This document shows, piece after piece, positions 2,239-20,600 of a stretch of 39,230 nt of DNA (position 1 is its first letter; each line of letters starts with the position of its first letter). Both the position numbers and the translations under genes were made by a program. Source of the stretch: Bacteroidales bacterium (GTDB lineage Bacteria > Bacteroidota > Bacteroidia > Bacteroidales > WCHB1-69); assembly GCA_017551725.1 (NCBI GenBank), contig JAFZKY010000060.1, positions 1-39,230 of the forward strand, in the 5' to 3' direction. Below the pieces are notes generated by a model. It was given only the letters and a program-made list of their open reading frames with translations. It was not told the origin of the DNA and did not search any database.

Positions 2239-3090
2239 TTAAGCGGCCTTCACAAGCATTATGTCGTCGTAGTTAAGGGCTTGGCCACTGACGTGGTGGC
2301 GCACCACCCTCGCACCCTCGAAGGGGTTGCCCACAGCCGGGTTCCTGCCCATCCAGTCGGCCAGCTCCACGATGGTGCTCTTCGAGCTGGTGAAGTACAC
2401 AAAGCGCGTCCTCTGCAGACACTTCAGCACGTCCAGATAGTCCGACAGCCGCCAATAGTTGTCGCTCTTGTATGTGCCGCAGTCGGTTGACAGATACGGT
2501 GGGTCGAGGATAAACACCACGTCCGGTACCAGCCGGAACTGGTCAAAAAGTCGGCGGTAGTCCATCGACACCACCTCCACACCCTCAAGGTAGCCGTCGG
2601 CGTTGTAGTCGTCCTGCCGCACCCTGTTGTAGAGGGTCTGCTTGCTGAATTCCTCGTAGTTGTGCGAGTAGTTCATCGTGAAATGCAGGTTGCTCGATAT
2701 TGAGAACCAGTCCACATATCCGCTCTCGTGCCAGCGTTTCACCTCTTCCACTACCTGCGACCGCACAGGCTCGTCGATGCGCATCTTGTGCGGTACCGTG
2801 GCCACCAGCGGACGCAGGGAGGCCAACATTTCGTTGGTTCGCCCGATATGTTCCAGACGTTCGCTGTAGTGGTCGTAGTCGTTGTACACCACGCGGCAGT
2901 CGGGTCGCGCCCTCTTGATAGTGTGGCTCACAAGGCCGCTACCGCCGAATAAATCGACGAATACAGCCCCTTTCTTCTGCTGCTTGGCCATTTCCTCTAT
3001 CTGGCGTATGAAACGCCGTTTCTGCCCCTGAAATGGCAACGGGGCACTCACAAACTTTTTCACTCGGTTCTTTGTTTGTTGGTTATACAT
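2239..3090 (-). CDS. D12-class DNA adenine N6-methyltransferase
   Basis: 283 residues. It transfers a methyl group from AdoMet to adenine in DNA. Motifs in the order of the Dam/DpnII-like D12 class: FQGQKRRF (about 20-27), the AdoMet-binding DLFGGSG (about 46-52) and the catalytic DPPY (about 196-199). The ATG at 3090 is chosen; it overlaps the stop of the upstream gene (ATGTATAA), indicating a coupled two-gene operon with the thymidylate-synthase-like enzyme. There is no partner nuclease beside it, so it is an orphan methyltransferase, probably protecting phage DNA from host restriction or marking it. The recognition sequence cannot be read from the protein. Confidence 0.88.
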   Translation of the reverse strand: MYNQQTKNRVKKFVSAPLPFQGQKRRFIRQIEEMAKQQKKGAVFVDLFGGSGLVSHTIKRARPDCRVVYNDYDHYSERLEHIGRTNEMLASLRPLVATVPHKMRIDEPVRSQVVEEVKRWHESGYVDWFSISSNLHFTMNYSHNYEEFSKQTLYNRVRQDDYNADGYLEGVEVVSMDYRRLFDQFRLVPDVVFILDPPYLSTDCGTYKSDNYWRLSDYLDVLKCLQRTRFVYFTSSKSTIVELADWMGRNPAVGNPFEGARVVRHHVSGQALNYDDIMLVKAA

Positions 3091-3721
3091 TAAGTTCAAA
3101 TTTCACGCCCTCCTCGCCTCGCAGCAAGGCGCGTGTTTTCTCCAAATTGTTCTCGTAGATGTGCACGTTGCCCAGGAACAGCGTGATGCTGTGCAGGGGC
3201 AGCTCCACCTGGCGGCTGATAAGGTAGAGGTGGTAGATGTCCGAGGGCAGCCCCAACGAAGCGTCGCTGCTGCGCTGGTAGGCGGTCAACAGCAGCCGTC
3301 CGTCCTCAATCTGGAACTGCACCAGGCTCAAGCAGGGTGCCTGGTTGCTCTCCGCGTTGGTCTCACCGAGGAACAGCACATAGTTCTTCGAGTTGCGCTT
3401 CTCACGGTTGATGCGCTCGATCAGGCGTGGCAGCTTCTCGAAATAGGTGGGGTAACTATTGACCAGGATTGGCCCGCAGTAGTCCCACCACGATATGCCC
3501 GCCTCGCGGTAGGCCTCGGTGTTGCGCTCACCCCGGCAGAACAGTTCCAGTTCGCTCCGCAGCTTCTTTCGGGCGATGCCGTGGCTCTCGAAGATGTCGA
3601 GCAGGTCGCCCGCATCCATCCGCATCACCTCGTTGGTCAGATAGCGGATATTTCCCTTTTTGTTCCGTTGCTCGCGTCCGTTTTCAAGGACGTTTCCGAG
3701 CATTGCATAATATTTGTTCAT
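3083..3721 (-). CDS. Thymidylate-synthase-family enzyme, predicted dCMP hydroxymethylase
   Basis: 212 residues, a little shorter than bacterial ThyA. Family landmarks are present: YCGP at 81-84, the nucleophile in APCLSLVQF (Cys130), the phosphate-binding RSSD (150-153), GLPSDIYHLY (157-166) and the HIY motif (187-189). Asp161 occupies the position of the conserved Asn (N177 in E. coli ThyA) that selects dUMP. Asp at this position is the known hallmark of dCMP hydroxymethylases such as T4 gp42. I infer production of 5-hydroxymethyl-dCMP for modified phage DNA, or a related pyrimidine modification. It is co-transcribed with the D12 methyltransferase. No modified-nucleotide kinase or glucosyltransferase is visible. 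Confidence 0.75.
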   Translation of the reverse strand: MNKYYAMLGNVLENGREQRNKKGNIRYLTNEVMRMDAGDLLDIFESHGIARKKLRSELELFCRGERNTEAYREAGISWWDYCGPILVNSYPTYFEKLPRLIERINREKRNSKNYVLFLGETNAESNQAPCLSLVQFQIEDGRLLLTAYQRSSDASLGLPSDIYHLYLISRQVELPLHSITLFLGNVHIYENNLEKTRALLRGEEGVKFELNV

Positions 3722-5095: not shown

Positions 5096-6181
5096 TTAGG
5101 ATGCTTTCTTCTGTAGGTAATGGAGATAGGCGAGAATCTTTTGGCTTTCGAGGTGGCGCATGTATGCTTCCATACAGTCCCAATCGGGGTTGCCGTCGGG
5201 GGTGGCGGGGAGAGTGATTATCTCTTTGGCCAAACGCTGGGCGTTTCGTTTGTATCCGAAGTTGTATTTGCCACGGATGCGGTCGGCAATGGTGGTGATA
5301 TAGGTGCCAGTGTATTTGTTCAGGTGTGGGTTGTAGCCAATGGTCATGTCGGAGGTGGCAATGAAATCCTCGGCCTTATAGACAGCATATCCCATTGAAC
5401 CCTCACCGTTGCGGATGAAAGCGATGCAGTTGCCACGCTGCACCATAGAGGAGACAGGTTCGACGAAATCAAGTACGCCGTTGTTGAGATTGGTGGCACC
5501 GAGATAACTAATGCCCTGCTCGTGACGTTGGAGATGGTTAAGTCCTTTGGATTTTCCGGGTTCAAGTATGGGGAACAGGTCGCGCAGCAGGAAGTCTCTG
5601 TAAGTCAGCTGTTTCTGGGGGGGGGTAACAGCTTGTTTATCAGCAAAATACTTAAGCGTTGTGCCGAGCATATCTTGCTCAACATCACGCATAAAGGCAG
5701 ACATAAACGCAAAATCTATTTCTCCTTTGTTGTCAGTGGGAAGCAATATCTTCTCCCTTTTTATCCTCTCATCGTTAATTTCCCTGTTAAAGCTATATTT
5801 CTCGGAAAGACGGTTGATGATGGGAACCATAAAAAGATAGGCGTACTTATCCAATCCCTCGTGTTGAAGACTTGTAACATGGTCGCTTGCTACAAAGCGG
5901 TAACGATGGTAAAAAGCACTACCCACACTACCGCTGTTTGCAACGGTAAGGCAATCCTCAAAAGTCCTTACGCGGCTCGTGTTTCCAATAAAGCCATCGA
6001 CACCGTTTGTCTGCGAAGTGGAAGATACATAAGGGGTGTTGCCCTCTGAATGGTCGGCTTTTTTAAGACGTTTGCCACGCTGAATGTCGGTGAAAACATC
6101 GGTAAAATCAAAGGCTTTCCACTTGTGGTTGAGGAGGTTGCGCTGCCCCCCCCTATTTGGTTGTATATCAGTTGTTTGCAT
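5096..6181 (-). CDS. Specificity subunit part 2 (recognition domains 2 and 3)
   Basis: 361 residues, close to the usual length of a two-domain S subunit. TRD2 spans about 18-190 (HKWKAFDFTDVFTDIQRGKRL to AFMRDVEQ) and TRD3 about 205-361 (LTYRDFLLRDLFPILEPGKSKG to AYMRHLESQ). Each domain ends in a repeated (I)LLP/TLPAT..G..D linker pattern. The linker between them contains nine C on the coding strand (5617-5625), in frame at nine. The ATG at 6181 lies inside the out-of-frame tail of part 1. With the 8-base G tract (6146-6153) this frame is intact from its own start; with nine G it would instead be fused to part 1. It would guide the methylase/nuclease subunit to its DNA target. Confidence 0.85.
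   Translation of the reverse strand: MQTTDIQPNRGGQRNLLNHKWKAFDFTDVFTDIQRGKRLKKADHSEGNTPYVSSTSQTNGVDGFIGNTSRVRTFEDCLTVANSGSVGSAFYHRYRFVASDHVTSLQHEGLDKYAYLFMVPIINRLSEKYSFNREINDERIKREKILLPTDNKGEIDFAFMSAFMRDVEQDMLGTTLKYFADKQAVTPPQKQLTYRDFLLRDLFPILEPGKSKGLNHLQRHEQGISYLGATNLNNGVLDFVEPVSSMVQRGNCIAFIRNGEGSMGYAVYKAEDFIATSDMTIGYNPHLNKYTGTYITTIADRIRGKYNFGYKRNAQRLAKEIITLPATPDGNPDWDCMEAYMRHLESQKILAYLHYLQKKAS
5617..5625 (-). repeat. Homopolymer tract (nine C on coding strand) in the TRD2-TRD3 linker
   Basis: Nine G on the plus strand encode the Thr-Pro-Pro part of the linker KQAVTPPQKQLT. Gain or loss of one base would stop translation after TRD2. Such tracts are classic slipped-strand contingency sites. 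Confidence 0.85.
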
Positions 6182-6675
6182 AGTCTGTCTATTGTCGGTT
6201 TGAGAATCTGCTGTTCTTTTTGGCGCATAAAGGCTTCCATATACTGCCAGTCGGGGGTGCCTTTGGCGGTTGCGGGAAGCAGTATCACCTGTTTTTGCAT
6301 ACGGCTTTCATTGAATTTGTAGCCGTATGCATATTTGACTTTCTGCTGTAGTAATGCTGTTTTGAGAAAGAGCATCACATATCGGTTTTCCGCAGATGCT
6401 TTTTTCAAATGCAGTCTTTTGACATCATCGGAAAAAATACATTCATACGGATGATAGAATGTCTCTCCCACACTACCGTTATAGTTCACGCCGAGACAAT
6501 GACTATCAAGACTGTCATTTGTATTATCAACCCACGCAGTAATACCATTGTTAGAGTCTGTCGCACCTATAAATGGGCGGTTGCCATCGGTCATATCGGA
6601 TTTTGTAAGCCGTTTGCCTGGCAGAATACCAAAAATGTCAGATATTCTAAATTCTGCCCATTTGTGGTTACTCAT
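5968..6675 (-). CDS. Specificity subunit part 1 (recognition domain 1), frame interrupted at G8
   Basis: 235 residues as it stands. Residues 1-178 form TRD1 (HKWAEFRISDIFGILPGKRLTKSD to YMEAFMRQKEQQ). After the 8-base G tract the frame runs into a nonsense tail of about 57 residues. The start at 6675 overlaps the stop of the methylase gene (ATGAGTAA), so it is translationally coupled. With nine G, this frame continues into the 5096-6181 frame, giving a single 526-residue protein with three recognition domains (positions 6675 to 5096). The current form is thus probably one phase state rather than a dead gene, but sequencing error in the tract is also possible. Confidence 0.85.
   Translation of the reverse strand: MSNHKWAEFRISDIFGILPGKRLTKSDMTDGNRPFIGATDSNNGITAWVDNTNDSLDSHCLGVNYNGSVGETFYHPYECIFSDDVKRLHLKKASAENRYVMLFLKTALLQQKVKYAYGYKFNESRMQKQVILLPATAKGTPDWQYMEAFMRQKEQQILKPTIDRLCKQLIYNQIGGGSATSSTTSGKPLILPMFSPTFSVANVLKKPTIQRATPLMYLPLRRQTVSMALLETRAA
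6146..6153 (-). repeat. Homopolymer tract (eight G on coding strand) at the TRD1-TRD2 junction
   Basis: Eight C on the plus strand. G8 keeps the two specificity frames separate; G9 fuses them exactly at the linker (IGGGQRN..HKW). The tract sits at the frame switch and not elsewhere in the gene. Confidence 0.88.
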
Positions 6676-8578
6676 GGTTATCTCCTTTCTCGAAAAGGTA
6701 GCCACGGCCATGCGTGAGCATATTGAACTCGAAAGTGAGATAGTCGGCCATAGTACGCTCAAAGTCGGCTTCGGTGGGTATTTCGTCGTTAAAGTAGTAG
6801 AAAGCGTGTAGCCATTCGTCCTCGGCCTCGATGGTGGTGCGTACACAGAACTTGGAAGGAGCATCTGCGCCGCGCCAAACATCAATGAGGTGCTGCCGCT
6901 TGTCCTTGGCCGATGCCGTCTCGACAAGGCCGATGTGCTTGGAAACCTCGTAGCCATCATCTTCGAAGTTGATAAACTTGCATTCGTGGTTTGGGGCGTG
7001 GGGAATGCCAGCGGTGAAGACGGCGATACAGGGATTGGTGCCGACACCATAGAAGGTGTTTTTGTTGAGGGTGATAACACCTTCGAGGGTATGACGTTTG
7101 AGGATTGAGGCTTTAACGACTTGCTCCTCTTTGGTCTTACCAGTGAACGACGACTGCGGAACGATGACTGCCACACGCCCACCTTCGACCATACAATCGA
7201 GCAAATGCTCGGTGAACGAAATTTCGTAAAGATTGGGGTTGCTCTTGCTGCCCTGACTATAGGGCGGATTCATCATTCCGACGGTGCATTGCTTCTGTTG
7301 CAACTGCGAGGGATTCTGTTTTAGGAAGTCGAGGTTTTGAAGATTGGACTTGCCGTCGCCACGAAGAATCATATTGGTGGTGGCGATGGTGAACATATAG
7401 GATTGGAGTTCGATGCCGAAAAGCTGGTCGCGCTTGATGGAACGTCGCTGCTGCTCGTCGGCTGTCTGACGAAGCATATCGTGCATGGCGGCAATGAGGA
7501 AACCGCCAGTGCCACAGCAGGGGTCAAGCACACGGTCGGTGGGCTTCAAATCCAACAAGTCGCAGAAAAGCGTGGTGATATGCTTTGGGGTAAGGACAAT
7601 GCCGAGGCTCTGTCCATCACCACCGCTGTAGGACATAAACTCGCCATAGAAAAGGCCAATCCAATCCTCGGCGGAGTGTATGTATTGGATGTTCTGGAAA
7701 ACGCTTTTGTTCAAGAACTCGACATAGTAGCGGAGAGGCGTTTTCTTAAGGACAGGGTCAACCTCGTTGATTTTGGCGGTGTCGCGAATGACGGAAAACT
7801 GGGAAAGGAGTTTGTCGCGCTTGGTGTCTGGCGTGACGTTGGCTCGCTTGAGATTGCTTTCGATAGCCGCATAAATCTTGTTGCCATCGGTATTCACACG
7901 GTCGCCAGTGAGTGAGTCGATGGAGAAGTTGTTCTCTTTTACCTCGCGGAGAGCGAGCAAGATGCCGGAAACGATAAGCGGTTTCTGCTGGTCCTGAATG
8001 TTGCCGTAGTTGCGCAAGTCCTCATGAAGTTGGCGGGCATCGCGGAGAATGTCGGCGGTCTGCCTCTCGTTAGGCGTGGCCTCTTTCAGCACACGGCGAA
8101 GGTAGTACTCGACAATGTTCTGCTCGCTGAACGAAATAAGGGTTTCGACATCGTCGAGTTCCCAAAGGTCGCCACGCTCGTTGACAAAGAGCGGGGTTAT
8201 TCGGTGGTGCTTCTCGTCGCCACTGATGCCAAGGGCAAACACTTTGTGGAAACTTGTGTTGAGGGCGATATGGCGGGCGTAGTGGAAGGCCCCATTGACA
8301 GCATAGGTGGTGGTGAATTGCGGTGCGAGGTCGATAAGGCCGTTTGGGTTGCGGTAAATGTGGTTGTCGAGGCTGGCTTTGTCTTCGATAACGATAAAGA
8401 AATCCTTTACCACGCCACAAAATTCCGGGCGACCGACCTTGCCCGTGCCTTTCTTGGAGGCGGATTTGAGGGCTTGCTCGACTTCGGGAATGGTGCTGCC
8501 TTGCGGGTCAAGGTCAAGGCCGGCCTCTTTCAGCAAGTCATAAACCCAAAAGTCGGTGTGCGCTTCTTTCTTTGGCAT
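6668..8578 (-). CDS. BcgI-like nuclease-methyltransferase subunit (type IIB RM)
   Basis: 636 residues, almost exactly the size recalled for the BcgI A subunit. The N-terminal domain has a PD-(D/E)XK-like signature: PE at 51-52, Asp59 and EDK at 65-67. It is followed by a helical HsdM-like region and an N6-adenine methyltransferase with DPCCGTGGF (351-359, AdoMet) and NPPYS (436-440, catalytic). No separate HsdR gene is present, which fits a nuclease fused to the methylase, working with an S subunit and cutting on both sides of the site. If the N-terminal domain is inactive, it would be a methylation-only type I-like system. It lies between the ORF6N gene (4-base gap) and specificity part 1 (8-base overlap). 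Confidence 0.82.
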   Translation of the reverse strand: MPKKEAHTDFWVYDLLKEAGLDLDPQGSTIPEVEQALKSASKKGTGKVGRPEFCGVVKDFFIVIEDKASLDNHIYRNPNGLIDLAPQFTTTYAVNGAFHYARHIALNTSFHKVFALGISGDEKHHRITPLFVNERGDLWELDDVETLISFSEQNIVEYYLRRVLKEATPNERQTADILRDARQLHEDLRNYGNIQDQQKPLIVSGILLALREVKENNFSIDSLTGDRVNTDGNKIYAAIESNLKRANVTPDTKRDKLLSQFSVIRDTAKINEVDPVLKKTPLRYYVEFLNKSVFQNIQYIHSAEDWIGLFYGEFMSYSGGDGQSLGIVLTPKHITTLFCDLLDLKPTDRVLDPCCGTGGFLIAAMHDMLRQTADEQQRRSIKRDQLFGIELQSYMFTIATTNMILRGDGKSNLQNLDFLKQNPSQLQQKQCTVGMMNPPYSQGSKSNPNLYEISFTEHLLDCMVEGGRVAVIVPQSSFTGKTKEEQVVKASILKRHTLEGVITLNKNTFYGVGTNPCIAVFTAGIPHAPNHECKFINFEDDGYEVSKHIGLVETASAKDKRQHLIDVWRGADAPSKFCVRTTIEAEDEWLHAFYYFNDEIPTEADFERTMADYLTFEFNMLTHGRGYLFEKGDNHE

Positions 8579-8582
8579 GGGG

Positions 8583-9554
8583 TTATAGTTTGTTTATCAG
8601 TTCGTCAGTCGACATCACCATCTTTGAGAAGGCAAACCATTTCTTTCCGAGGTCTTTCAGCGATGCACCGATATGATATACTGTGCTGTCGATACAGAGG
8701 AAACGGTCGTGTGTCTTGTCAAATGTCGTTACGGTGATTGGACGGTATTGGGCGTTGTGCTTGGCGATGTCGAGCGACAACTGCTGCGAAATGGTCTTGG
8801 TGAATATCTCGGCATCGACGTTCTGTTTGCGTTTGTCGAGGAGCGTCAGCACGGTGTCGTCAATGTAGTTGTCGAACAGGACTATGCGTTTCTTGGCGGA
8901 GCGTATGAGGTCGGAAACGAATGTGTGAGCGTCGAAGATTTGGCCATCGAAGAAGATGCCCTGCTGCGGTTGCTGACCAGCTTCGAGCAACTGGAAAACG
9001 CGGTCAATGCGTTGGTCGGTGGCGATTTGGTGTTGCTCAAGATTTTCAATGCGTTGAAAAACGGCTGCATTGGAAATAAGGAAATGGCGCATGGCGGTGA
9101 ACGCCCGCATAATTTGTATATTCACCTCAATGGCTGTCTGTGAGCGTAAAACGCTGCTAAGCATTGCAACACCATTTTCGGTAAAGACATAAGGCAAATA
9201 CTTGATGTTATGTCCACGACCTGTGTTCAAGGTCACATTTTGTGATTTTGAAAGATCGGCAGTCCCGTTCAAGGTCACAATTTGTGATCTTGAACCATCG
9301 GTTTCATCTTGTGTGAGTTGAAACATGAAATCACTGGGAAATCGGTCCGCATTGCGCTTCACTGCTTGGTTGAGGACGCGCGTTTCCACGCCATAGAGCT
9401 GTGCCAAATCGCGGTCGAACATTACCTGTACACCACGAATGGTAAATATCATCTTCTCAATCTGGGATGCAGGAACTAACCTGTCACATTTTGTGATGGG
9501 TTCATCGTCTTGCGTGGCAATGATTTCTATATCAGTGTTCTTCTTTTTTGCCAT
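8583..9554 (-). CDS. ORF6N-domain protein leading the RM operon
   Basis: 323 residues. Residues about 24-115 match the ORF6N DNA-binding domain (IRGVQVMFDRDLAQLYGV, LNQAVKRNADRFPSDFMFQL). This is followed by YLPYVFTENGVAML and a C-terminal PLD-like region (HDRFLCID, YHIGASLKDLGKKWFAFSK, about 270-315). Such proteins often sit with type I-like RM genes in Bacteroidetes; their role is thought to be regulatory or DNA-binding but is not settled. It is the first gene of the operon, with its own promoter at 9582-9613. Two 42-bp tandem repeats (9226-9309) insert extra SQxVTLN units in the middle of the domain. Confidence 0.8.
   Translation of the reverse strand: MAKKKNTDIEIIATQDDEPITKCDRLVPASQIEKMIFTIRGVQVMFDRDLAQLYGVETRVLNQAVKRNADRFPSDFMFQLTQDETDGSRSQIVTLNGTADLSKSQNVTLNTGRGHNIKYLPYVFTENGVAMLSSVLRSQTAIEVNIQIMRAFTAMRHFLISNAAVFQRIENLEQHQIATDQRIDRVFQLLEAGQQPQQGIFFDGQIFDAHTFVSDLIRSAKKRIVLFDNYIDDTVLTLLDKRKQNVDAEIFTKTISQQLSLDIAKHNAQYRPITVTTFDKTHDRFLCIDSTVYHIGASLKDLGKKWFAFSKMVMSTDELINKL
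9226..9309 (-). repeat. Two tandem 42-bp repeats inside the ORF6N gene
   Basis: Copies at 9226-9267 and 9268-9309 share TTCAAGGTCACA(a/t)TTTGTGAT(c/t)TTGAA. They encode 14-residue units (SQIVTLNGTADL.. / SQNVTLN..). The length is a multiple of three, so copy-number change would keep the frame. Confidence 0.7.
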
Positions 9555-11997: not shown

Positions 11998-13188
11998 TTA
12001 AACACTCGCCGCAAAGCCGATCTTCACCCGTATGGTGCGCATCACACCCGTCGGTACCTGCTTCAGCACCACCTCCACCTCGCCGGTGCTCAACACCGGC
12101 TGCTGAGGGTCTATCTCTGCTTTGTAGCCGCTCAACTCACCGGCCTTCTCCATCTCTCTCAGGGGCTGGTTGGCCGTGTTCTCGAGGCCGGCAACGGTGT
12201 CGGCTCTCAGCGTGCCGTCGTCGGGGTTCACATACACCTTGCCGCCGAGCTTCGGCAGCAGGGCGGCATACACGCCGCGCACCGCCTTGTCCATCGTGCG
12301 CACACGCTCGATGTAGCGGTAGTCGCTCGTCTCCTCGTCCAGCGTGTGGCTGTCGTTCAGATAGCTCCCGGCATAGGCGGGGTAGGTCAGCAGGAACAGC
12401 AACCCTTTCTCGTCCAAAGTGTCTTTCTCGGTCTTCGTCATGGCGCTCAAAAGGGTGCCGTCCACCAGGGCGGGGTTGTCGATGCCGCTCGGAAACTTCT
12501 CCACCCACGCCACACTCTCGTTCACGGCCGCCAGGCTCATCATGCCCGTCACAAGACCTACACAGCCCACAGCCTCGCTGCCGCTGTTGCCGGTCGTGAA
12601 CAGGGTGCTGTCGCCGTCCTGGGCGATACACACGCTCACGTTCTTCCTTCCCGCTCGGCGCAGCGCCAACGTCAGGGCTGCCGTCTTCGTGGTCTTGCCC
12701 ACATACACCAGGCTCATCGGGGTCTGCTCACTCTCCAGCGAGGTGGCTTTGGTCTGCAGGGCCAGCACGTCGGCCTCGGCCACCGTGGCCGAGCCGTCCC
12801 ACACGCCCACCTGGCGCAACTCGCCGCGGGCAAAGGCCTGCAGCTGGTCGAGCTCGGCAAAGGTCTTCGCCACGGCTCCCTGCGGACGTTCGTACACGCC
12901 CACATACAGTGTGCCCTTCGGGTTCATCCTGAAGAACTCCGCCACGTGGTAGGCTATCACTTTCACGTTCCAGTTCGACGCCTCCTGCGTCAGCCCCGCA
13001 GCCTCAGCGTCCTCGGCATAGCCGAACTTCACGATATGCTGCGTGGCACTGAACGGACTGTCGGTCATACCTATCAAGGCCGTATATGCGGCACTCGGTA
13101 CATAGAACAGCAGACCGCTCACAGGGTCTTTGCTGGCTCCGCTCGGCGGTATCCCGCCGTTCTCTCTGATTATGTCTAATCTGTTCAT
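11998..13188 (-). CDS. Contractile tail sheath protein (DUF2586-like), module B
   Basis: 396 residues, same length as the module A sheath at 19407-20600. Shared features: an N-terminal GLLFYVPSAAYTA..FSATQHIVKFGYAEDAEAAGL-type segment, a central Ala/Gly-rich region, a YRYIERVRTMDKAVRGVYAALLP region matching RRRTIDKAYRIAYRTLV, and a C-terminal EVEVVLKQVPTGVMRTIRVKIGFAA matching RLEVSLKVKPYGYSKYIDVKLGFKT. It forms the contractile sheath. It overlaps the upstream lipoprotein gene by 4 bases. Confidence 0.8.
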   Translation of the reverse strand: MNRLDIIRENGGIPPSGASKDPVSGLLFYVPSAAYTALIGMTDSPFSATQHIVKFGYAEDAEAAGLTQEASNWNVKVIAYHVAEFFRMNPKGTLYVGVYERPQGAVAKTFAELDQLQAFARGELRQVGVWDGSATVAEADVLALQTKATSLESEQTPMSLVYVGKTTKTAALTLALRRAGRKNVSVCIAQDGDSTLFTTGNSGSEAVGCVGLVTGMMSLAAVNESVAWVEKFPSGIDNPALVDGTLLSAMTKTEKDTLDEKGLLFLLTYPAYAGSYLNDSHTLDEETSDYRYIERVRTMDKAVRGVYAALLPKLGGKVYVNPDDGTLRADTVAGLENTANQPLREMEKAGELSGYKAEIDPQQPVLSTGEVEVVLKQVPTGVMRTIRVKIGFAASV

Positions 13189-19406: not shown

Positions 19407-20600
19407 TTAGGCTGTCTTGAAGCCGAGTTTGACATCAATGTACTTGCTGTAGCCGTAGGGTTTCACCTTCAGGCTCACCTCCAGGCGGGAGGTCGCCAGA
19501 ATGTTCTGGTCGGGGTCGATGTAGCAGGTCACACCCAGGTCGCTTGCGTTGTCCGGGTCGTTGCCAAGGTTGCCCTCGCTGGTCATCGAGTTGACGATGG
19601 CGCTCTCCACCGAGGTCTCGACCGACTTGCACTGGTAGGCGGCCAGCTTGCCCTCGGTGTTCACCGGCACATTCTCCGCAATCTCCTCCACAAGGGTGCG
19701 GTAGGCAATGCGGTAGGCTTTGTCGATGGTACGGCGGCGGGCGATCGAGCAGTAGTCGTCGCTGGCAGCGGTGGCCAGATGGTCGTCGCTCCAGTAGTAG
19801 CCGCTCTTACCCACGAAGGTACGTGGCACGATGTAGCCGAGGTCGTTGGCAACATCCGGGTCGCCGAGTTCGGCGGCCACGCTGCCGATATACATAGTCT
19901 CGGCTTTGATGGCACCGCTGCGCACACGCGCCAGGTTACGGTGTACCGGCTCTGCCGCCAGGCGTCCGGCCACAAGGCCGATGGCCGCATTGGCGCTGCC
20001 GGTCACGCTGTCGCCCAGCACCACGCCCACGCGGTTGTCGCTGCGGGCTGTCAGGTCGGGAAGCGTAGCGGCGGTACCGTTGTAGCTCAATGCCTCGACC
20101 AGGCACATGAACGGGGCGTACTTGTTTGCCGTCCAATCCTCGGCCAACGCCTGCAGGTTGCCCACGGCGGTAATGGTGGCGGCATCGATGCTGCCGCTCA
20201 TCGTCGGGCTGTTCCCCGAAGTCAGTTTCACCATCAGTATGTTGATGGCTCCACGGGCAGCCGTCAGCAGCGGGCTGATGTTGTTTTTGGTTTTGTCTGT
20301 CAGGTTGGCAATGGTCACGGTTGAAGCCACGCCCATCACCCACAGCTTTGTCCCTTCGGGGGCTTCGCTGTAGAACTCCTTGACGGTCTTGTAGAGAAGG
20401 GCGTTGGCACCGGTGGCCGCGCTGGTGATGCCCAAAGCCTCCAACCCTGCCAGCTTGGTGATAAGGTAGGGGTGGTTCAAGGCGAAGGTCTGGCTCACGG
20501 CGGTGGCGTAAGCCACAAGACCGCACACACCGTCCTCGCTGGGGGCCACACCGCCCAAGGCTCCGTTCTCAAAGGTTATTTGTACTCTTGGTAATGCCAT
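19407..20600 (-). CDS. Contractile tail sheath protein (DUF2586), module A
   Basis: 397 residues. MALPRVQITFENGALGGVAPSEDGVCGLVAYATAV, the Ala-rich middle, LVAGRLAAEPVHRNLARVRSG, ARRRTIDKAYRIAYRTLVEEI and a C-terminal VSLKVKPYGYSKYIDVKLGFKT are characteristic of DUF2586-type sheath proteins of Bacteroidetes Mu-like phages. It follows the capsid gene and is followed by the tube gene in the standard order. Confidence 0.85.
   Translation of the reverse strand: MALPRVQITFENGALGGVAPSEDGVCGLVAYATAVSQTFALNHPYLITKLAGLEALGITSAATGANALLYKTVKEFYSEAPEGTKLWVMGVASTVTIANLTDKTKNNISPLLTAARGAINILMVKLTSGNSPTMSGSIDAATITAVGNLQALAEDWTANKYAPFMCLVEALSYNGTAATLPDLTARSDNRVGVVLGDSVTGSANAAIGLVAGRLAAEPVHRNLARVRSGAIKAETMYIGSVAAELGDPDVANDLGYIVPRTFVGKSGYYWSDDHLATAASDDYCSIARRRTIDKAYRIAYRTLVEEIAENVPVNTEGKLAAYQCKSVETSVESAIVNSMTSEGNLGNDPDNASDLGVTCYIDPDQNILATSRLEVSLKVKPYGYSKYIDVKLGFKTA

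Follow-up and report, generated by a model that had tools for sequence, protein, structure and literature searches.

The S gene at this locus raises the question of what is gained when three TRDs are separated by two homopolymer tracts, each able to shift the reading frame: a choice among DNA specificities, an ON/OFF control, a mixture of products from one genotype, or a broken gene. The locus lies on the minus strand of a 39,230-bp stretch of DNA from a gut bacterium of the Bacteroidales, referred to here as the window. A sequence-only reading had proposed the order TRD1-G8-TRD2-C9-TRD3. Re-reading of the coordinates confirms this order, and a TRD profile built in this analysis, which placed the three units with approximate coordinates, leaves both tracts in the linkers (Table 1). 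The S gene starts at an ATG (6675-6673) that overlaps the end of the partner gene (stop codon at 6670-6668). Its TRD1 frame reads through G8 to a stop at 5970-5968, and a second ATG, inside the TRD1 coding sequence in a different frame, opens TRD2-TRD3 down to 5096. The re-read frames thus agree with the proposal that at G8 the gene forms two separate frames, the second with its own ATG at 6181, and the 526 residues proposed for a fused product would fit the length of the span. Pfam Methylase_S has one match in TRD1 and two in the TRD2-TRD3 protein.

Table 1. Features of the restriction-modification locus in the window; tract bases are given for the coding strand.
Feature	Position	Strand	Details
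BcgIA-like restriction-methyltransferase subunit	6668..8578	-	636 aa; Pfam N6_Mtase; PADLOC REase_MTase_IIG
TRD1 reading frame as sequenced	5968..6675	-	235 aa: TRD1 plus out-of-frame tail past G8
TRD1 unit (TRD and short conserved helix CR1)	6175..6669	-	TRD profile 2e-66; Pfam Methylase_S in 6145-6675
Alternative-frame ATG overprinted on TRD1 Leu-Cys codons	6179..6181	-	start of 361-aa TRD2-TRD3 frame
Tract 1, G8, TRD1-TRD2 linker	6146..6153	-
TRD2-TRD3 protein	5096..6181	-	361 aa; PADLOC Specificity_II; PHROG 12160; Pfam Methylase_S, two stretches
TRD2 unit	5639..6130	-	TRD profile 1e-63
Tract 2, C9, TRD2-TRD3 linker, in frame here	5617..5625	-
TRD3 unit	5108..5611	-	TRD profile 3e-57

The two tracts are the sole G/C runs of at least 8 bp in the window. 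The pair is not a product of chance: when the gene was shuffled 1,000 times with dinucleotides preserved, no shuffle contained two such runs and 31 contained one, although shuffling the whole window gives a mean of 1.3.

Judged by its motifs, the system is a BcgI-like type IIB system, with restriction and methylation motifs in one partner. Four phage A subunits (phi-42, phiSabovST1, IME1323_01 and MT839747) are 44-52% identical to the partner in alignments that span all of it; the phiSabovST1 genes are annotated bcgIA/bcgIB, and MT839747 is an unannotated human-gut record. The PADLOC REase_MTase_IIG profile (length 637) covers partner residues 4-634. Residues P51, E65 and K67, which we take to be the N-terminal nuclease motif, are invariant in 37 aligned partner rows, as are N437-P438-P439 of the NPPY methyltransferase motif, and a regular expression for the nuclease-like motif matches 126 of 135 relatives. 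By sequence alone, nuclease-like and N6-adenine methyltransferase motifs are therefore combined in one subunit of ~640 residues, as in BcgI-like systems. A separate S subunit with TRD-helix repeats is likewise present, identified by PADLOC Specificity_II, Pfam Methylase_S and alignment to phage S subunits. Known S families are close in length to the two-TRD protein (341 for PADLOC and 361 for PHROG, against 361 aa), and on this comparison it is the 361-aa chain of TRD2 and TRD3 that corresponds to known S subunits, yet the gene region also contains a third TRD. A type I identity (hsdM/hsdS) was rejected, hsdM TIGR00497 scoring 30.3 bits against a cut-off of 242.75; no HsdR was found among the window ORFs scanned.

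The genes around the locus belong to a Mu-like transposable prophage and comprise a transposase, transposition protein, terminase, portal, sheath-like protein and tape measure; the transposase and transposition-protein matches uphold the earlier suggestion that the locus is carried by such an element. Directly upstream of the partner gene is an ORF6N antirepressor-like gene (8583-9554, minus strand), the C-terminal half of which matches a VPA1262-family domain under the cut-off. DUF2586 (sheath-like) genes occur twice in this one prophage (11998-13188 and 19407-20600, minus strand), and a short thymidylate-synthase-like gene of 212 aa (3083-3721, minus strand) scores under the NCBIfam cut-offs of the families listed.

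To place the locus in context, relatives were gathered by similarity of the partner protein, so their S genes are unselected for repeats. The 150 scored loci comprise the best 80 of 392 genome-contig relatives, 61 viral-contig relatives, 5 phage records, 3 order-level genomes and the window; fewer than two TRDs are present in 31, many at contig ends, and some loci are near duplicates. A single-protein search confirmed no partner relatives in viral contigs, and an alignment-based search gave the 61. The one viral-contig relative of the TRD2-TRD3 protein (L002) is cut inside its last TRD and was left out of the counts. Among 60 host relatives, the top full-length partner match is 33% identical (G050), with shorter fragments reaching 38%. 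An order-level draw of 393 genomes yielded four matches at E 1e-120, including the window's own; the other three are new loci, of which one stops short of any TRD and two carry a pair of TRDs each, separated in one case by a linker with G9. At least three TRD hits occur in 41 of the 150 loci, a set that includes the best 80 of the 392 genome relatives. A three-TRD gene had been thought unusual in itself, and within this branch it is not.

The TRDs behave as modules. Close relatives swap TRD1 or TRD3 and leave the neighbouring units similar; between the window and L040, DNA identity is 54% in TRD1, 91% in TRD2 and 51% in TRD3. Elsewhere, TRD cores that share 50% or more identity with TRD1 of the window occupy positions 1, 2 and 3. 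The helices that follow the TRDs, compared across the 15 both-tract loci, are specific to their position, with identities of 0.76, 0.73 and 0.58 within positions and 0.25-0.39 between them (the third helix, CR3, was recognised in 12 of the 15).

Simple repeats, defined here as G/C runs of at least 7, A/T runs of at least 9, and di-, tetra- and pentamers, concentrate in the linkers. Across the 150 loci, again including the best 80 of 392 genome relatives, 65 were counted in 9,792 bp of linker (6.6 per kb), 10 in 140,591 bp of TRD (0.07 per kb), 4 in 273,405 bp of partner gene (0.015 per kb) and 48 in 1,239,714 bp of flank. Restricting the count to G/C runs of at least 7 and to loci with two or more TRD hits gives 44 in 9,668 bp of linker and zero in 128,496 bp of TRD body; the broader count adds one G run within a TRD hit, at a locus with fewer than two hits. 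Linker 2 carries a repeat in 36 of the 41 loci with at least three TRD hits (17 G/C runs, 17 TA repeats and 2 AGCCG pentamers). The five exceptions are L079 and L097, where TRD2 and TRD3 are fused, L123, with four hits whose frames lie apart, L178, which consists of fragments, and L104, where one TRD is split into two hits and the locus really has two TRDs. Two-TRD loci count against a switch, in that only 14 of 78 have a repeat in linker 1 (13 poly-G, one (AG)n), although some of these contigs stop before a third TRD could show.

In a rapidly built tree of the partners from 104 loci out of the 150, all with at least 43% identity and two or more TRDs (97 different rows), repeat type mostly tracks clades, with G/C runs in Bacteroidales, TA in Bacillota and the pentamer in Moraxella. 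The three-TRD rows of this tree need at least six changes of repeat type when 'none' is scored as a state. The linker position is constant while the repeat unit changes, which argues for selection on the switch rather than on the encoded residues. Within Moraxella, L083 and L085 hold AGCCG pentamers of 80 and 20 bp in linker 2, and L082 has poly-G in linker 1. The TA repeats in linker 2 of the Streptococcus loci L059 and L062 encode Tyr-Ile repeats. These two loci also have an extra open frame of 342 aa between the partner and S genes, presumably RhuM-like; six Streptococcus loci share an extra 1 kb in this interval, and inverted TRDs were rejected as its content, since it is a separate ORF in both loci examined, L059 and L062. 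A reverse-transcriptase-like ORF, possibly of a diversity-generating element, lies ~2.5 kb downstream of the S gene in L041 (11965-12597, plus strand).

The tracts lie within the coding frame and their length sets that frame, as in slipped-strand phase-variable loci. Of the 44 linkers with a G/C run of at least 7, the flanking TRDs are fused in 13 and fall into the other two phases in 11 and 20; where no G/C run exceeds 4, 84 of 88 TRD1-TRD2 linkers join their TRDs in one frame. These phases, together with the position of both tracts in linkers, support the earlier proposal that the tracts gate domain composition. The 15 loci with both tracts, which are short (7-12), occupy six of the nine phase combinations. 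None of the 15 has all three TRDs in one frame; ~0.7 such fusions are expected from the marginals, so their absence is uninformative, and the state may be unused or just rare. The three-TRD fusion that had been proposed as a product therefore finds no example among both-tract loci, but TRD1-2-3 do share one frame in Streptococcus orisratti (L062) and some other Bacillota.

Among relatives, tract lengths differ between copies whose S regions are otherwise identical. Over 8,290 bp, Bacteroides mediterraneensis L047 and Mediterranea massiliensis L048 show 2 mismatches and a single gap, which falls in tract 2 (G8 vs G9) and is the sole difference in the S region; this stretch includes genes that belong to an integrated mobilizable element, with a relaxase and an integrase in L047. 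L046, a Candidatus Onthomorpha MAG, matches L047 along 3,168 bp apart from 1 mismatch and a gap that lies in tract 1 (G9 vs G8). All of these sequences are assembly consensuses, in many cases MAGs, in which homopolymer counts may err, in any single pair as well. No further near-identical copies were found in plasmids, nor in viral contigs by pattern or with the L047 S protein. In the window and its three closest relatives among the best 80 of 392, the lengths of tracts 1 and 2 are 8/9, 8/10, 7/8 and 7/7. The window differs from L039 by three indels, of which the two one-base indels both fall in tracts and a three-base indel lies elsewhere. Linker 2 also varies where the repeat is TA, with a difference of 8 bases between viral contigs L118 and L146. 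Invariant tracts in relatives had been named as the finding that would count against a switch; the lengths vary, even between copies identical elsewhere in the S region.

The same observations bear on two rival accounts. One holds that the frame is split by an error of assembly or sequencing, or that the gene is a pseudogene in decay. Homopolymers are error-prone and the window genome is a draft (66 contigs, 81% complete), but many records, the isolates L045, L047 and L048 included, have tracts in these same linkers, the TRD frames are open and the partner gene is intact, and other clades have repeats of a different unit length instead. This account is already hard to hold for the family, and we regard it as very improbable. 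The other places the slippage in transcription or on the ribosome, such that each genotype yields several products and phase variation of the genome is secondary. Homopolymers can cause slippage of both kinds, and this speaks for it; however, genomic tract length itself varies between copies otherwise identical in the S region, and TA repeats or a pentamer stand at the same place in relatives, which leaves it unlikely.

We favour, with a probability of close to four in five, a BcgI-like type IIB system whose S gene has three TRDs and two hypermutable tracts and is switched by slipped-strand mispairing. Slippage most likely picks which TRDs join, and so alters specificity; we infer that it causes the length differences and that these are reversible. 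Tract 1 would have three phases: (i) TRD1 fused to TRD2; (ii) TRD1 alone together with a separate TRD2-containing protein translated from the overprinted ATG, the phase of the window; and (iii) TRD1 only, with TRD2 untranslated. Tract 2 would set whether TRD3 is attached to TRD2 or lost. The chief outputs would be two-TRD subunits with a common TRD2 (TRD1-TRD2 or TRD2-TRD3) and half-subunits, the predicted output of the window being TRD1 alone and TRD2-TRD3. Half-subunits may act as homodimers, by analogy with NgoAV and with TRD3, not TRD1, of JHP1422. Each pairing would alter the DNA sequence read, and since one putatively active partner would both cut and methylate, with nuclease-like and methyltransferase motifs in the same chain, both specificities would shift together.

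Use of phase (ii) is suggested by the overprinted start. The TRD1 helix ends in Leu-Cys-Lys in these Bacteroidales (Leu-Cys-Asn in L053), and CTA and TTA are the sole codons for this leucine that give an ATG in the reading frame leading into TRD2 in this phase. One or the other is used in all 18 Leu-Cys loci (the window, 16 genome relatives and the gut phage fragment L033), against 140 of 455 (0.308) other leucine codons of the same units, giving a naive p of 6e-10 with relatedness ignored. The alternative frame is open up to the tract in 17 of the 18; L043 has a stop before the tract, which counts against the switch proposed here. The Leu-Cys pair is missing in the other 10 of 28 loci with poly-G in linker 1 (L051, L068, L181 and seven of other phyla).

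These codons weigh against a third account, in which the tracts are plain ON/OFF switches, one TRD combination being active and the remaining phases off; the conserved ATG makes sense if phase (ii) is used. Excerpts of published work on related systems point both ways. Activity of H. pylori JHP1364/JHP1365 was reported for a frame-corrected, re-engineered S gene and, according to PMC4209511, only with both TRDs expressed, and JHP1422 TRD1 alone is inactive and gives no methylation (PMC3936762), a result that also counts against the specificity switch; moreover, under our reading of the phases, 9 of the 15 both-tract loci would yield no two-TRD protein. By contrast, active subunits of palindromic specificity are described for the first TRD of NgoAV alone (PMC3874165) and for JHP1422 TRD3 alone (PMC3936762). 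A simple ON/OFF role is thus a possibility to be taken seriously, although we doubt it.

Our preferred reading, a switch of specificity, has a direct precedent in H. pylori HP1471, a two-TRD relative in which, in the available text of PMC4209511, poly-G lies directly between TRD1 and TRD2 and a change of specificity by phase variation was proposed. HP1471/HP1472 and JHP1364/JHP1365 resemble the window locus in pairing a BcgI-like partner with an S gene that contains poly-G, but have two TRDs and one tract in place of three and two; that text mentions neither a third repeat-gated TRD nor an overprinted start for HP1471. Sau42I of Staphylococcus phage phi-42 (X94423) is likewise phage-borne and BcgI-like, with an A subunit 47% identical, but its two TRDs share one frame with no tract. 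The remaining parallels, again from excerpts, are of other types. The type I system JHP1422/JHP1423 of H. pylori has an HsdS with three tandem TRDs and two recognition sites via different TRD pairs (PMC3936762), although its TRD2 and TRD3 are identical and the excerpt describes no linker homopolymer. In Neisseria gonorrhoeae NgoAV, also type I, the S subunit is either cut short or completed by way of poly-G in hsdS, with a change of motif; in the excerpts of PMC6789123 it is not a three-TRD gene. H. pylori JHP1272 has two homopolymers, the second of which adds a C-terminal TRD that changes specificity (PMC3936762), but it is a single-gene type IIG enzyme with short continuous motifs such as GGWTAA. 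No type IIB S gene with three TRDs and a repeat in each linker was found in the open-licence literature searched, which falls short of proving absence; new with respect to that literature are the repeat-gated third TRD and the two tracts in combination, the overprinted start codon, and the family-wide pattern in which one linker has acquired repeats of different types.

Taken across the branch, the data incline us, somewhat more than evenly, towards a general design in which a third TRD is maintained downstream of a hypermutable repeat in several phyla, with phages and mobilizable elements among the carriers, and in which the type of repeat has been replaced more than once while its place stayed fixed. 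In Bacteroidales, the second tract and the overprinted start would make of this a frame-driven selector that pairs a common middle TRD with either neighbour, cutting and marking changing together. If this is right, a single slip alters both what the restriction system cuts and what is protected, which sharpens the question of how a cell survives the switch of a restriction-competent enzyme. The two isolates with a common mobile element are natural one-base variants, from whose methylomes specificity by TRD pairing could then be read. Phase-variable epigenetic switches of gut Bacteroidales usually work by inversion rather than slippage; the loci described here would add candidate switches of this kind on their phages and mobilizable elements.
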